Origin: a virus
IMG/VR virus record: IMGVR_UViG_3300046462_000707
Span: 1 to 38,542 of that record
Length of the DNA stretch: 38,542 bases
Reading direction: 5' to 3' (one strand)
In this document: positions 589-5,815 of the stretch, one piece after another
Numbering within the stretch: position 1 is the first letter of the stretch
Layout of the letters: the number at the start of each line of letters is the position of its first letter
Notes under the pieces: generated by a model
Databases searched by the model: none
Seen by the model: the letters and a program-made list of their open reading frames with translations, nothing else
Told to the model about the DNA's origin: nothing
Position numbers and translations under genes: made by a program

Positions 589-592
589 CATG
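577..592 (+). promoter_or_regulatory. Leaderless promoter of the integrase gene
   Basis: TACAAT at 577-582 is followed by exactly seven bases and then the ATG at 590, so transcription would begin at or next to the start codon. No Shine-Dalgarno sequence is present. A good -35 box is not obvious. The -10 lies inside the right arm of the candidate attP and would stay with the integrase after integration, while any -35 region would be replaced partly by host DNA. Confidence 0.4.
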
Positions 593-1981
593 CAGGACAG
601 GGTCCCGGCGCGGCTCCGTGCCGTCGGGGTGATACGTGTCTCCGAGGTCGGCAAGCGTGACCGCGAGAGCGAGTCTTTTATCACGGCTCGCGAGCAGCGA
701 GAGCAGTTCACGTCCTGGTGCGCTCGTCACGCCGCGGACCTGGTCGAGGTCGTCAACGAGATCGATGTCTCCGGCAAATTGGAGCTCGCCAAACGCCGCG
801 GCCTGCTTCGCGCGCTCGAGCTCATCGAAGGTGGCATCGCCAACGTCCTGCTCTTTGCGTATTTCGACCGCTCGTTCCGGAATCTCGATGTCCAGAACTC
901 GGTGCTCGCGCGCATCATCGAAGCTGGTGGCGCGACGTACGCGTGCGATTTCGGCGAAATTCGCTTCGGCACGCCAGCCGAGCGCTTCGCTACCACGGTG
1001 CAGGGCGCGGCCAACCAGCTCACCAGTGACCAGGCGGCGTACAAGGCGATGAATGCCAAGCGCGACGCTGTAGCGCGTGGCGTGCCGCCGTTCTCCCGGT
1101 TGTGCCTTGGGTATGTTCGTGGGCCCGACGGACATGTGGCCGTGGACCCCACGCTCGCGCCGCTGGTCACAAAGATGTTCAACATGCGCGCCGACGGCGC
1201 CACGCTGAAGGAGTGCCAGCAGTTCCTGGCCGACAACGGCGTCGTGCGGAGTTACTCGAGCGTCAAGGCCACGTTGGCATCGAAGATGGTGCTCGGCGAA
1301 CTGCACGCGGGCAAACATGTCACTCCGAATCTTGAGTCGCACACGGCCATCGTCGACCGTGTGACCTGGCAGCGCGTGCAGCGCGCGAAGGTGCCGCGCG
1401 GACGGGTGCCACTGCCAGACGGCCGCTTGCTGGGGCGCATGGGCCTGTTGCGTTGCGGCGGCTGTGGCCGCGCGATGTCGTCGGGCGGCTCCAGGAGCGG
1501 TGGCAAGACGTATCGCACCTATGTGTGCGGCATGCGGGCGGATTGCCCGCGGCCGGTCTCGATCAACGCCACGCTGGTCGAGCGGTTGGTGGCCGATGAG
1601 TGCCGGCGTTACATCGCGGGTAGAACACAGTCTGCGAGTCTGGATAGCAAGGTGCGTGAGGCCGAGGACCGCGTGGCGCATGCGGAGGCGGCCCTCGACG
1701 GCGCGATCGGGCTGCTCGCAGGGATCGAACGCCCATCCGCGCGGACGCGACTGCTCGAGTTGCAGCACGACCTGGCGGAGGCTATCGACGCGCTGAACGT
1801 GGTCCAGCGGCAGGCGGGACCGCTAGAGCTCGTGCGCGGCGACGTCGACTGGGATCGACTCAGTCTCGACGAACGCCGCGGGCTGATCCGCGCCATTTTT
1901 CGTTCGATTACGGTGCACCCGACGCAGGCGGGCATCCCGCGCGACGCCAGCGCGCTCACGTTCGAGCCGTTCGTCGAGTAA
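590..1981 (+). CDS. int: Large serine recombinase (phage integrase)
   Basis: A 463-residue site-specific recombinase that would integrate and excise the phage genome. The N-terminal resolvase-type catalytic domain has the nucleophile Ser18 in RVSEVG and the family motif around the FDRSFRN stretch (about residues 87-93). A recombinase domain follows (about 140-250), then a zinc ribbon with CGGCG near residue 290 and a second Cys pair near 313-320. A coiled-coil insertion occupies about 345-410, and the C-terminal segment contains LSLDERRGLIRAIF. This order is standard for large serine integrases. The ATG has no Shine-Dalgarno but sits seven bases after a TACAAT box, suggesting a leaderless message. 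The candidate attP ends one base upstream. No separate directionality factor is recognisable, and one of the nearby small genes may serve. Confidence 0.95.
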   Translation: MQDRVPARLRAVGVIRVSEVGKRDRESESFITAREQREQFTSWCARHAADLVEVVNEIDVSGKLELAKRRGLLRALELIEGGIANVLLFAYFDRSFRNLDVQNSVLARIIEAGGATYACDFGEIRFGTPAERFATTVQGAANQLTSDQAAYKAMNAKRDAVARGVPPFSRLCLGYVRGPDGHVAVDPTLAPLVTKMFNMRADGATLKECQQFLADNGVVRSYSSVKATLASKMVLGELHAGKHVTPNLESHTAIVDRVTWQRVQRAKVPRGRVPLPDGRLLGRMGLLRCGGCGRAMSSGGSRSGGKTYRTYVCGMRADCPRPVSINATLVERLVADECRRYIAGRTQSASLDSKVREAEDRVAHAEAALDGAIGLLAGIERPSARTRLLELQHDLAEAIDALNVVQRQAGPLELVRGDVDWDRLSLDERRGLIRAIFRSITVHPTQAGIPRDASALTFEPFVE

Positions 1982-2110
1982 CCGCCGGGCTGCCCGCGCC
2001 AAGATGCGGTCAACTTCCGCGGCCACGCGCGGCGGCAGCGGAAGTGGAACCAGTCCATGGGAGTCCTCGTCGTTGAGCACGGGCGGGTCGTCTTTGGCCG
2101 CAGGTGACAT
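1823..2110 (-). CDS. Possible small leftward gene overlapping the integrase 3' end
   Basis: From an ATG at 2110 the frame gives 95 codons. The first 43 lie in the gap after the integrase and read like protein: an acidic start, then PLPLPPRVAAEVDRIL and a charged helix. The rest is antisense to the integrase C-terminal codons. A GATACT hexamer on the minus strand (2118-2123) is followed by seven bases and the ATG, the same leaderless spacing seen at the integrase, and the operator-like TGTCTGTCAGT overlaps it. A recombination directionality factor would fit this place, but there is no homology evidence. The 159-base antisense overlap argues for caution. Confidence 0.35.
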   Translation of the reverse strand: MSPAAKDDPPVLNDEDSHGLVPLPLPPRVAAEVDRILARAARRLLDERLERERAGVARDARLRRVHRNRTKNGADQPAAFVETESIPVDVAAHEL

Positions 2111-2210
2111 GTCTGTCAGTATCTGGCGGGCCAGACCTGCCGTCGATGCCAACGTCAGGACACACAAGCTGACTGTCTTGTGTGTGTCGCCGCACTGGAC
2201 AGGTGTCCAG
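2110..2210. promoter_or_regulatory. Operator cluster between two leftward regulatory genes
   Basis: Four elements lie in 100 bases: TGTCTGTCAGT (2110-2120, repeated at 2706-2716); the palindrome TCTGGC-GG-GCCAGA (2122-2135); a long inverted repeat ACACACAAG/CTTGTGTGT with an 8-base loop (2160-2185); and CTGGACA-GG-TGTCCAG (2195-2210). Two palindromes share a central GG and a GGACA-like half-site. They probably bind a phage repressor and control the small leftward gene. The 2160-2185 hairpin could also end transcription of the HTH gene, although it lacks a T-run. Confidence 0.5.
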
Positions 2211-2223
2211 GTATGCCGGCGAA

Positions 2224-2604
2224 TCAGGCTTGCTGAACGCTGACGATGACGGCGCGTGGTCCCAGCTCGGTGCGGATTTTGGCGATCGCTTCGTCGATGG
2301 TGACCGCGGTCACCCACCGCTGACCGCTCAGGGTGTAGGTGATCAGCCACGAGGTCGGGGTCTGCTCAGCTGCGGCTTGCTCCGTGCCGCCAGCGAGCCG
2401 AAGCAACGCTTCCCAATCGTCGAACGGCGGCCACGGCACGTCGAACTTCTGACGAAGCCGATAGAGCGTGCGCGGCGCGATGTTCAGCGCCTGGGCCATG
2501 CCGTCGTGTTTGGCGGCATTGGGATCCGAGATGACCGCTGCCCTCATGGCCTCGGCGAGCTGTTCGCGGGTGCGGTACGGAACAGGGCGTCGCTGAGCTG
2601 ACAT
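2224..2604 (-). CDS. HTH DNA-binding protein, candidate phage repressor or regulator
   Basis: A 126-residue protein. Residues 10-60 look like a Fis/resolvase-type helix-turn-helix: an N-terminal helix (TREQLAEAMRAAV), then GMAQALNIAPRTLYRLRQKF, a typical helix-turn-recognition helix. The C-terminal half has a beta-like SWLITYTLSGQRWVTAVT segment and a final helix, perhaps for dimerisation. Upstream on the minus strand are a TATACT -10 (2642-2647) and an AGGAGG (2628-2633) 23 bases before the ATG. A perfect 7-bp hairpin (2607-2625) fills the gap and would bring the two within about four bases. Operator-like repeats flank the gene on both sides, consistent with a lysogeny regulator. No peptidase domain of the CI/LexA type is present. 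Confidence 0.7.
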   Translation of the reverse strand: MSAQRRPVPYRTREQLAEAMRAAVISDPNAAKHDGMAQALNIAPRTLYRLRQKFDVPWPPFDDWEALLRLAGGTEQAAAEQTPTSWLITYTLSGQRWVTAVTIDEAIAKIRTELGPRAVIVSVQQA

Positions 2605-2842
2605 TGGCGCGACTGGTGGAGTCGCGTCCTCCTGGCCACGCAGTATAGGGACGCTCGCGCCACGGATCGGTGGTCTGTCAGGTCGTCGTGCCAGGGTTTG
2701 TCATCTGTCTGTCAGTGGTATGTCCTGCATGGTATTGTCTGGACGGCTCCGCACAGAACAGTTGTCAGGGTTGTGTTCTGGTCGAACTAAGCCAGTTCCG
2801 ACACGACAGACCTGGCAAGAGCAGCGGATCCAGTCGTATTCT
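2605..2842. promoter_or_regulatory. Divergent control region between the HTH gene and the SOS-box gene
   Basis: This gap carries the leftward leader (hairpin CGCGACT/AGTCGCG at 2607-2625, AGGAGG, TATACT at 2642-2647) and a GGTCTGTCAGG element near 2672-2682. It also has a second copy of TGTCTGTCAGT (2706-2716), and an inverted repeat CAGAACA/TGTTCTG with a 13-base spacer (2754-2760/2774-2780). Half-sites TGTC and GACA recur throughout. The arrangement resembles an immunity region with operators for two opposing transcripts. Apart from the TATACT, promoter boxes here are weak. Confidence 0.5.
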
Positions 2843-2862
2843 TTAGAACTTGTGTTCTAAAA
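2843..2862. promoter_or_regulatory. LexA-like SOS box upstream of the 2879 gene
   Basis: The 20-base perfect palindrome TTTAGAACTTGTGTTCTAAA contains GAAC-N4-GTTC, the core of the Gram-positive LexA (DinR) box. It overlaps a TATTCT -10-like hexamer at 2838-2843 and the expected transcription start, so a bound repressor would block the following gene. The palindrome and its match to the core are seen directly. That host LexA binds it, linking this gene to DNA damage, is inference; a phage-encoded repressor is the alternative. Confidence 0.5.
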
Positions 2863-2878
2863 AGGCAAGGGGCGGTTC

Positions 2879-3217
2879 ATGGATCCTTTGGCGCAGCGCA
2901 TCCTTGACGAGATCCAACGCAGTTCATTGTCACCAGATGATCGCGGTGCGCTCGCGATGGCGATTCGGGGCAATCACCATCAAGGGCACCCGAGCCCGAT
3001 CGCGACCTGGTCGACGACTTCAGAGTTTCTTGTCGAACTCTGTGAGTGGGCGGCCGCTCTACCGGCCGAACACCTGCCGCCACGAGAGGGTGATGCCGCG
3101 CGTCACTTCGGACGCAACATCCGCACAATCGGCAGATGGTTGAGCCGTGCCGGCATAGCGGGGTGGGACGGATTTTTGCGGTTCTGGACGCTCGCGGTGC
3201 GTGAACCCAGCGCGTAG
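2879..3217 (+). CDS. Small putative DNA-binding regulator under the SOS-like box
   Basis: A 112-residue protein with no family I can name. The C-terminal third (EGDAARHFGRNIRTIGRWLSRAGIAGWDGFLRFW) has the shape of a helix-turn-helix: a small-residue helix, a turn and a recognition-like helix with Arg and Trp. The ATG at 2879 has AAGGGG eight bases upstream, one of the few clear ribosome binding sites in this region. The palindrome at 2843-2862 sits 17 bases ahead of the start. Its position opposite the HTH gene suggests the other half of a lysis/lysogeny switch, for example an antirepressor or Cro-like protein made on SOS induction. That role is inferred from context. Confidence 0.6.
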   Translation: MDPLAQRILDEIQRSSLSPDDRGALAMAIRGNHHQGHPSPIATWSTTSEFLVELCEWAAALPAEHLPPREGDAARHFGRNIRTIGRWLSRAGIAGWDGFLRFWTLAVREPSA

Positions 3218-3342
3218 CGGCCATTGATTGACAGGAATACCTGTCTTGACTGTCATGTGTCGCGACAGTTGATGGACACATAGCCTGTCTGTCCTCACGT
3301 TGGCATTTACTGGGCCTGACAACTGGGTGCATAGTCGCTGCC
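3218..3342 (+). promoter_or_regulatory. Promoter-operator region of the ribbon-helix-helix gene
   Basis: GACAGG-AATA-CCTGTC (3230-3245) is a perfect palindrome. TGTCGCGACA (3258-3267) is another, and TGTCTGTC (3286-3293) matches elements at 2110 and 2706. A likely promoter is TTTACT (3306-3311) and CATAGT (3330-3335) with an 18-base spacer, then seven bases to the ATG at 3343, again leaderless spacing. This is probably the main early rightward promoter, repressed through the palindromes. Confidence 0.5.
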
Positions 3343-3501
3343 ATGAGCAACACCGGCCTTTATGTGAGGCTCGACCCAGAAAGTTTCGAGCGGCTGCGGA
3401 AACGAGCCGCCGAAGACCGCCGGACGCCTGGGGACCAGGCCGCGGTGCTTCTTCGAAAGGCGCTTGAAGCGCTTGAGGCGCTCGAGTCTGTCGCGGCTTA
3501 G
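3343..3501 (+). CDS. Ribbon-helix-helix (Arc/CopG-type) regulator
   Basis: A 52-residue protein too short for most ORF finders. It starts with a beta strand (GLYVRLDPESF), followed by helix A (ERLRKRAAEDRR) and helix B (TPGDQAAVLLRKALEALEALE), the ribbon-helix-helix pattern of Arc/MetJ/CopG repressors. The start has no Shine-Dalgarno but lies seven bases after CATAGT. It sits directly downstream of the GACAGG/CCTGTC palindromes and is the first gene of the long rightward early operon, so it may autoregulate that operon. The next gene starts two bases after the stop. Confidence 0.7.
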   Translation: MSNTGLYVRLDPESFERLRKRAAEDRRTPGDQAAVLLRKALEALEALESVAA

Positions 3502-5220: not shown

Positions 5221-5681
5221 TGCGCGTCACCCGCATCAGCATTGCGCTCGAGCAACGCCTCGGCGACAACGACTACGGCTCCGAGCGCGCCCAGGTGGAG
5301 TACACGGCAGAGCTGGGCGCCGAGGACGATGCAGTCGACTGCACGCAGAAACTGCTCTGGCACGCGCGCGTGCAGCTCTTTCACGAGCTGAGCAACTCGC
5401 GCACGCTGGCCATTCGCCGCAAAGCGAACCCGCCGGCGCGGTTGTGCGCGGAGTGCAAGCAGCCGCTCGGGGACGAAGACGACTATCGCCACCCGGCCTG
5501 CGAGGAGGCGATGCTCGAGCGGCGCAAGCAGCAGGAGGAGGAGCGCCGCGCGAAGTACGAGGAAGAGCGCAAGGAGCGCGAGGCGGAGTACCAGCGCCAG
5601 CGTGAGCTCGCGGGCGTTGGCGCCTCGACCGATGACAACGCCGACGATGAGCCCGACGACGACGAGGATCTGCCGCTGTGA
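5220..5681 (+). CDS. Conserved phage protein with Cys/His motif, coiled coil and SSB-like acidic tail
   Basis: A 153-residue protein starting at GTG 5220 (TAGTG overlap). Residues 1-60 form a beta-alpha domain beginning VRVTRISIALEQRLG, like a family common in phage early regions. Residues about 77-95 contain C-x2-C and H-x3-C, a probable zinc site. A charged coiled coil follows (EERRAKYEEERKEREAEYQRQ), and the last 16 residues are strongly acidic and end DEDLPL. That ending resembles the acidic tip of bacterial SSB proteins that recruits partner enzymes. This is a resemblance only; no OB fold is evident. Confidence 0.6.
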   Translation: MRVTRISIALEQRLGDNDYGSERAQVEYTAELGAEDDAVDCTQKLLWHARVQLFHELSNSRTLAIRRKANPPARLCAECKQPLGDEDDYRHPACEEAMLERRKQQEEERRAKYEEERKEREAEYQRQRELAGVGASTDDNADDEPDDDEDLPL

Positions 5682-5815
5682 CGTGGACGAAGCTGCAACA
5701 GCAGGCCATGGCGGCGCCCTCCGCTCGGGCCCACCAGGTGCAGGGCGAGCACTTCGAGGATTACGTCAGTCCGACGAATGAGGACGCCAGGCTCGGCCTG
5801 ACGGTCAACCGTTGA
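5678..5815 (+). CDS. Upstream part of an ORF interrupted by an in-frame TGA
   Basis: From GTG 5678, which overlaps the previous stop, the frame reads 45 codons to a TGA at 5813-5815. GAGGA lies about ten bases upstream, so translation here is likely. The same frame continues open past the TGA for another 166 codons (to 6313) with protein-like composition. The two parts look like one gene with a TGG-to-TGA change, a natural readthrough, or a base-call error. See the entry for 5882-6313. Confidence 0.4.
   Translation: MTWTKLQQQAMAAPSARAHQVQGEHFEDYVSPTNEDARLGLTVNR

Follow-up and report, generated by a model that had tools for sequence, protein, structure and literature searches.

A conserved LexA-type box over a small regulator gene suggests a route for DNA-damage sensing in a phage family probably infecting Chloroflexota

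The window, as we call the whole 38542-base virus record analysed here, carries at positions 2842-2861 the palindrome TTTAGAACTTGTGTTCTAAA, which very probably functions as an operator for the LexA protein of the host. This reading, made from sequence, follows from three lines of evidence taken together, namely conservation of the palindrome among related phages, matching boxes before the lexA genes of a Chloroflexota class, and the score of the palindrome in a PWM built from those boxes. The LexA-type identity proposed in the initial annotation of this DNA agrees with the outcome in each case. The box lies over the promoter of a small regulator gene, termed 2879 after the position of its start codon, and the product of this gene is probably the trigger of the lytic switch.

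A LexA-type palindrome spans the start region of the 2879 promoter

Inspection of the sequence places the palindrome, TTTAGAAC-TTGT-GTTCTAAA, one base to the left of the interval 2843-2862 from which it had initially been reported (2842-2861; no strand assigned). Its two 8-base arms repeat each other perfectly in inverted orientation, and symmetry is absent from the 4-base centre, TTGT. The full palindrome pattern, with up to three mismatches allowed, occurs once in the window, whereas 0.01 occurrences are expected from shuffled sequences. Its core, GAAC-N4-GTTC, occurs twice (2846 and 37656) where 0.32 copies are expected, and 7 of 100 shuffles reach two copies. The core alone is therefore only mildly unusual in one window, and it is conservation, not the core count, that is decisive.

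The likely promoter of the 2879 gene, whose hexamers were picked by eye, extends from 2813 to 2842 on the plus strand and consists of TGGCAA (2813-2818), an 18 b spacer and TATTCT (2837-2842). The last base of TATTCT is also the first base of the LexA box, and an AAGGGG ribosome-binding site (2867-2872) is located on the 3′ side of the box, before the ATG at 2879. Because the box sits between TATTCT and AAGGGG, it covers the expected transcription start of 2879. The overlap with the likely -10 element and start of this promoter that had been noted at the outset thus holds for the promoter as read by eye.

Farther upstream is a possible weak second LexA-like site (CACAGAACAGTTGTCAGGGT; 2752-2771, no strand assigned) that is partly conserved. 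Among PWM sites it ranks fourth in the window (score 6.2), third in the related phages L004 (12.0) and L005 (9.0) and second in L014 (9.7), and it falls outside the six best sites in L006 and L011. The sequence AGAACA-N13-TGTTCT, found at 2755-2779 approximately 90 b upstream of the LexA box and partly kept in L004, L005 and L009, may be a further LexA site of low strength or an operator of a different kind.

The box is conserved in seven distinct phages

Relatives of the 2879 protein are present in IMG/VR at 100, 89, 80, 68 and 60% identity. A further record, L009 (the same as L014), encodes a homologue with 62% identity and was also reached through the protein of the neighbouring gene 2224, and the most distant relative, L193, shares 51% identity. 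Near-identical records were counted once (the window with L003; L011 with L012 and L013), which gives seven distinct phages. GAAC-N4-GTTC is located upstream of the 2879 homologue in all seven, so that the conservation in relatives by which the initial annotation had wished its proposal to be judged is borne out. The distance from GAAC to the 2879 start is 28-41 b in six phages and 34 b in L193.

Box spacers vary across the seven phages (TTGT, GAGT, GCAC, GCAT, GTGT, AAGT and TTGT), and despite this variation both half-sites and the TA behind them are constant. In an alignment of six phages, all eight half-site columns are invariant, compared with 16.7% of the other columns; the corresponding value of approximately 6e-7 assumes independent columns, and related sequences are not independent. 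Seven other phage records (30-42 kb) contain the core once in six cases and twice in one, and the site before 2879 is always included.

An additional search of IMG/VR was conducted with the pattern of the two outward promoters that flank the regulator genes (PL and PR, described below). This search returned 28 stretches, of which 10 are known relatives and two are new and carry the same early gene (L193 and L197). L193 was retrieved by the promoter pattern alone, yet it has a LexA box and a 2879 homologue between PL and PR; the L197 record ends just before PR. Among the remaining 16 stretches, a core box precedes the match by 24 b in L199 and L200, whose sequences are identical, and the other 14 show no core box within 900 b. 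Comparison of positions 2001-3400 of the window with public phage records by DNA similarity gave no match.

The probable host phylum and the LexA box of its class

The box alone cannot name the host, because GAAC-N4-GTTC is also the Gram-positive LexA motif; it is described for B. subtilis and M. tuberculosis and extended from these to Gram-positive bacteria (PMC3323433). Neither the motif nor the phylum names appear in PMC8565304. A more specific lead comes from L009, in which a tyrosine integrase gene (PF00589) is adjoined by the 3′ part of a tRNA that constitutes the attP. A search with 25 bases of this tRNA fragment, covering GTDB at one genome per species, recovered 102 loci from several phyla. 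An unbroken match to the L009 attP, from CTCTGGA to the 3′ end, is present in three of the 102 (L054, 45 nt; L061, 43 nt; L097, 43 nt). All three derive from Chloroflexota MAGs, and none of the other 99 loci comes near. By reading, CTCTGGA corresponds to the anticodon loop of tRNA-Gln. The family of soil phages to which the window belongs thus probably infects Chloroflexota, a link that passes through one relative and its attP. Chloroflexota was one of two phyla originally named as possible hosts; the L009 attP points to it, and the lexA boxes of the class examined below agree.

Other routes to the host were less informative. ARAGORN detected no complete tRNA gene in the window or in L009, and a T-arm scan identified the L009 fragment only. 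The terminase, RNase H and integrase of the window have only distant matches among public phages, all below 60% identity, and a host call from these genes was rejected because the hosts of the matches are mixed (Arthrobacter, Streptomyces, Mycobacterium, Tunturiibacter and others). An integrated copy of the module was not found in the GTDB scan, in the 29 genomes of the class to which the first MAG belongs, or in 400 Chloroflexota genomes. Specifically, 91 peptide-pattern stretches from one genome per GTDB species included no relative of the 2879 family, a search of the 29 class genomes that was run without a positive control likewise gave none, and the PL/PR pattern produced two single matches in the 400 genomes, approximately the chance level by a rough estimate, and no pair. 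The window terminase has two weak matches, at 34% identity, in the 29 class genomes.

Each lexA gene of the three Chloroflexota MAGs is preceded by CGAACGCYTGTTCTAG, with its GAAC 59-63 b upstream. Among the 29 genomes in the class of the first MAG, 27 have a LexA match, and all 27 carry an exact GAAC-N4-GTTC within 250 b upstream of the best lexA copy. Among the second lexA-like copies of this class, the three retrieved (L184, L185 and L186, each from a different genome) have no exact GAAC-N4-GTTC upstream; six more such copies exist. In the three MAGs, GAACRNRYGTTC gave forward counts of 24, 27 and 34, compared with 2, 14 and 8 for the reversed control. The core box is located directly before six of nine matches to Y-family polymerases in these MAGs, and one of the three misses (L156) begins at a contig end, without upstream sequence. 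No exact box is present in the stretches fetched for recA of the three MAGs.

A PWM was built from the 27 lexA-promoter boxes, whose own scores range from 14.9 to 26.9. The box in the window scores 27.1, above all 27 training boxes, although part of this score is built in because the training boxes were chosen for the exact core; the flanks and spacer were not so chosen. The next-best score in the window is 12.0, the score of the other exact core, and the highest score in 20 simulated windows is 18.0. The box before 2879 likewise ranks first in every one of the five further phages scored, which are all but L193.

The 2879 gene and its divergent neighbour encode predicted helix-turn-helix proteins

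The predicted LexA-controlled regulator gene (2879-3217, plus strand) encodes 112 aa with a C-terminal helix-turn-helix (HTH) at residues ~70-107, and its product would act as a trigger of lytic growth or excision. Pfam yields weak HTH_23 matches in six of six members of the family and weak HTH_28 matches in five of six. The AlphaFold2 model has pLDDT values of ~91-93 over residues 71-100, blocks of 79-93 over residues 41-100, and 73 overall. Foldseek returned nothing significant (best E 0.69 in PDB and 0.32 among viral models). In a structural second look, the AraC-family activator Rns ranked first (Z 7.1, rmsd 1.8, 55 residues), with a Z within the usual noise, and the 2879 model superposes on one HTH of Rns. 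AraC-type activators possess a pair of HTH motifs with a linker helix between them, bind DNA and activate transcription. No AraC-family Pfam match was obtained for 2879 up to E 0.1, and the likeness of its modelled HTH to Rns is suggestive only. The core of the recognition helix, RTIGR, is constant in all seven phages. In L009 the homologue (5438-5710, minus strand) is, as read, ~27 N-terminal residues short, and both the whole HTH and the LexA box are kept.

The 2879 gene had been described as antirepressor-like. Nothing marks its product, a protein with a C-terminal HTH, as an antirepressor, and scans of Pfam, PHROGs and NCBIfam produced no match that would liken it to Tum, GfoA/GftA or AntC. 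A role in activation through DNA binding, or one like that of Cro, is just as possible for the protein as antirepression.

The divergent gene 2224 (2224-2604, minus strand) encodes a 126-aa HTH regulator with homologues in the relatives, and is a candidate for the lysogeny repressor or a partner. Its match to an Xre-like HTH is weak (E 6.6e-5) and below the cut-off, and profile comparison with hhalign aligns its HTH with that of 2879 (86.8%). The core of its recognition helix is constant in four phages and different in L006, L011 and L193. The predicted structure is poor (pLDDT 67.8), and its matches in the second look do not rise above noise (Z no higher than 4.8). In front of 2224, a small hairpin, GGCGCGACTGGTGGAGTCGCG (2606-2626, minus strand), separates the AGGAGG ribosome-binding site from the ATG; it is kept in L004 and L005 with a changed loop and a partly changed stem.

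Peptidase_S24 (PF00717) has no match in the window at E 1 and none at E 0.1 in seven relatives, whose records may be fragments. The earlier statement that the window encodes no self-cleaving repressor therefore stands for PF00717, the one family searched.

Predicted twin outward promoters share a conserved candidate operator upstream

On either side of the regulator pair lies one arm of a 32-nt inverted repeat (81%; 2146-2177 and 3275-3306), and this repeat region holds matching predicted outward promoters, PL and PR, together with GACA-N11-TGTC. Both starts are apparently leaderless. The predicted PR (3306-3335, plus strand) comprises TTTACT (3306-3311), an 18 b spacer and CATAGT (3330-3335), with the start codon 7 b on at 3343. 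The predicted PL (2117-2146, minus strand) comprises TCGACG (2141-2146), an 18 b spacer and ATACTG (2117-2122), with the start codon 6 b on at 2110. The proposed PR operator (3275-3293) is found in the same place in all seven phages and the proposed PL operator is at 2159-2177 (no strand assigned to either); these are the only two copies of GACA-N11-TGTC in the window. Simulation put at least two copies in 29 of 200 windows, and additional copies outside PL and PR are present in L005, L006 and L011, so that the assignment of these sites as operators rests on position and conservation rather than on count.

The distance from TGTC to the start codon is 48-50 nt in all 14 PL and PR promoters of the seven phages, although the search pattern already fixed the initial part of this spacing for the L004 PL and both L193 promoters. 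In the same promoters, a -35 element of the TCGAC or TTTAC type lies 12 nt after TGTC and the -10 position 36 nt after it, which leaves no room for a leader; the -10 of the L193 PL is poor. The centre of the operator is thus held ~59 b upstream of the start codon and at a fixed spacing to the -35. Activators that touch RNA polymerase (class I, such as CRP) bind at a comparable upstream position, and for simple repressor sites a location ~59 b upstream of the start codon is unusual. The operator position at PL and PR therefore suggests an activator site. Since RTIGR is constant in all seven phages and the 2224 HTH varies in three, the 2879 protein is the better fit to the unchanged operator half-sites. 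Whether it acts there as a direct activator is, in our estimate, evenly balanced.

PR precedes the first gene of the rightward operon (3343-3501, plus strand), which encodes a 52-aa ribbon-helix-helix (RHH) protein (weak RHH_5 match, E 0.015; Arc-like PHROG, E 0.059). This protein is conserved in the relatives to the same degree as that of 2879, and could be an alternative binder of GACA-N11-TGTC. PL precedes a leftward gene (1823-2110, minus strand) whose 95-aa product has no Pfam match and is a candidate recombination directionality factor. The leftward gene overlaps the 3′ end of the gene for a large serine integrase (590-1981, plus strand), which has Resolvase, Recombinase and zinc-ribbon domains and matches the phrog_95 integrase at E 3.6e-52.

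In L009 the place of the leftward gene is taken by an excisionase-like HTH_17 protein, beside the tyrosine integrase. The relevant part of L009 (6894-6970 and 7053-8321) combines an attP in tRNA-Gln with the tyrosine integrase and the HTH_17 gene that follows PL, where the window has its serine integrase. The integration module is swapped between L009 and the window, and the switch is retained.

A model for damage-induced switching and its alternatives

We consider it likely that induction proceeds from LexA through 2879 to PL and PR. In a lysogen, host LexA bound at 2842-2861 would shut the 2879 promoter; on DNA damage, RecA-triggered cleavage of LexA would permit the 2879 protein to be made. 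This protein would most likely bind GACA-N11-TGTC upstream of both outward promoters, turning on the leftward gene with its presumed excision function from PL and the rightward early operon from PR, after which the prophage would excise and replicate. The regulator that opposes 2879 is probably encoded by its divergent neighbour, 2224. Sequence comparison supports this account through the box, its conservation, its match to the LexA sites of the probable host class, the absence of any recognisable S24-type self-cleaving repressor, and the twin operators. We infer that LexA occupies its box in the cell, that the 2879 protein binds at PL and PR, and that it activates these promoters rather than relieving repression. 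A stronger version, in which lysogeny depends mainly on host LexA and its silencing of a phage activator needed by both PL (excision) and PR (early genes), is put forward tentatively and is the more doubtful part of the model. If it is true, one LexA box governs excision and replication together, and a two-step relay from LexA to an activator operates in Chloroflexota phages.

It is unlikely, but worth weighing, that the 2879 protein is instead a LexA-controlled antirepressor that inactivates the 2224 protein by contact, in the manner of Tum and GfoA/GftA, so that PL and PR would be derepressed rather than activated. Known LexA-controlled phage induction proteins are antirepressors (PMC3121763), and a divergent HTH gene, 2224, does adjoin 2879. 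However, the near-invariant HTH of 2879, with RTIGR in seven of seven phages, would be needless for action by protein contact. The sites at PL and PR could be repressor operators, yet three of the seven phages have a deviating 2224 HTH although the operator half-sites are constant, and an operator centred ~59 b upstream at a fixed spacing in both promoters is an unusual arrangement for a simple repressor site.

Somewhat less probable still is a scheme in which 2879 is an SOS side gene, coding for a Cro-like repressor or an excision helper, and induction passes through an unrecognised sensor such as a divergent cleavable repressor. Room for such a sensor is left by the search of PF00717 as the sole cleavable-repressor family and by the many scanned window genes without a known domain, and the likeness between the HTHs of 2879 and 2224 recalls CI/Cro pairs. 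Nevertheless, none of eight records has an S24 match, and the site before 2879 is the one GAAC-N4-GTTC common to all records. It is very improbable that the palindrome itself serves a regulator encoded by the phage (2224, 2879 or the 3343 RHH protein) and bears only a superficial likeness to LexA sites: it does stand between divergent regulator genes, the usual place of phage operators, and part of it, TTGTGTTCT, is found again at 2771-2779, but PL and PR have a different common operator, the core is present once, at this site, in six of seven other records, the box outscores all 27 lexA boxes, and all three candidate hosts have lexA boxes with the same CTA behind the right half-site.

The favoured account, in which LexA controls 2879 and 2879 in turn acts on PL and PR, offers a testable description of DNA-damage sensing by phages of a large and hardly cultured soil phylum, with the site, the regulator and the probable target promoters named. 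For one Chloroflexota class it also defines the LexA box, on the basis of 27 of 27 LexA-bearing genomes, in a form usable for predicting the SOS regulon there.

Comparison with known phage switches

A lambda-type switch has OL and OR operators and the divergent genes cI and cro. The arrangement in the window is similar in its divergent regulators with similar HTHs and in its outward promoters with shared operators on both sides. In contrast to lambda, the damage signal here seems to enter via LexA on a regulator promoter and not by repressor cleavage, and the operators are upstream of the -35 elements.

A closer parallel in the input signal is provided by the LexA-controlled antirepressors described in PMC3121763, which are Tum of coliphage 186, AntC of N15, and GfoA/GftA of the Gifsy prophages. 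In these systems, as would be the case here, a small prophage gene under host LexA triggers induction by damage. Unlike those proteins, 2879 has an HTH DNA-binding domain, and it has no DinI-family match in the scans made. The present system further differs in its GAAC-N4-GTTC box and twin PL/PR operators, and antirepression is not part of the favoured account.

In Bacillus phage GIL01, the lysogenic state is maintained by host LexA, and late genes require a phage activator (PMC6182141; further sources are PMC4551915 and PMC9700832). Lysogeny through host LexA with no dedicated phage repressor is stated for GIL01 and proposed here, and a phage DNA-binding protein, gp6 in GIL01 and by our proposal 2879 in the window, activates lytic genes. 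The LexA motif of B. subtilis is likewise GAAC-N4-GTTC (PMC3323433). There are also differences. The GIL01 switch uses sets of LexA boxes with assistance from gp7, whereas in the window a single strong box stands at a dedicated regulator gene; the gp6 activator is homologous to LexA and acts on late genes; and GIL01 is non-integrating, whereas the window phage has an integrase.

A search of the open-licence literature yielded no account of a phage switch under LexA control in Chloroflexota. Relative to the known systems with LexA input, the differences lie in the regulator protein, the twin operators and the probable host phylum.
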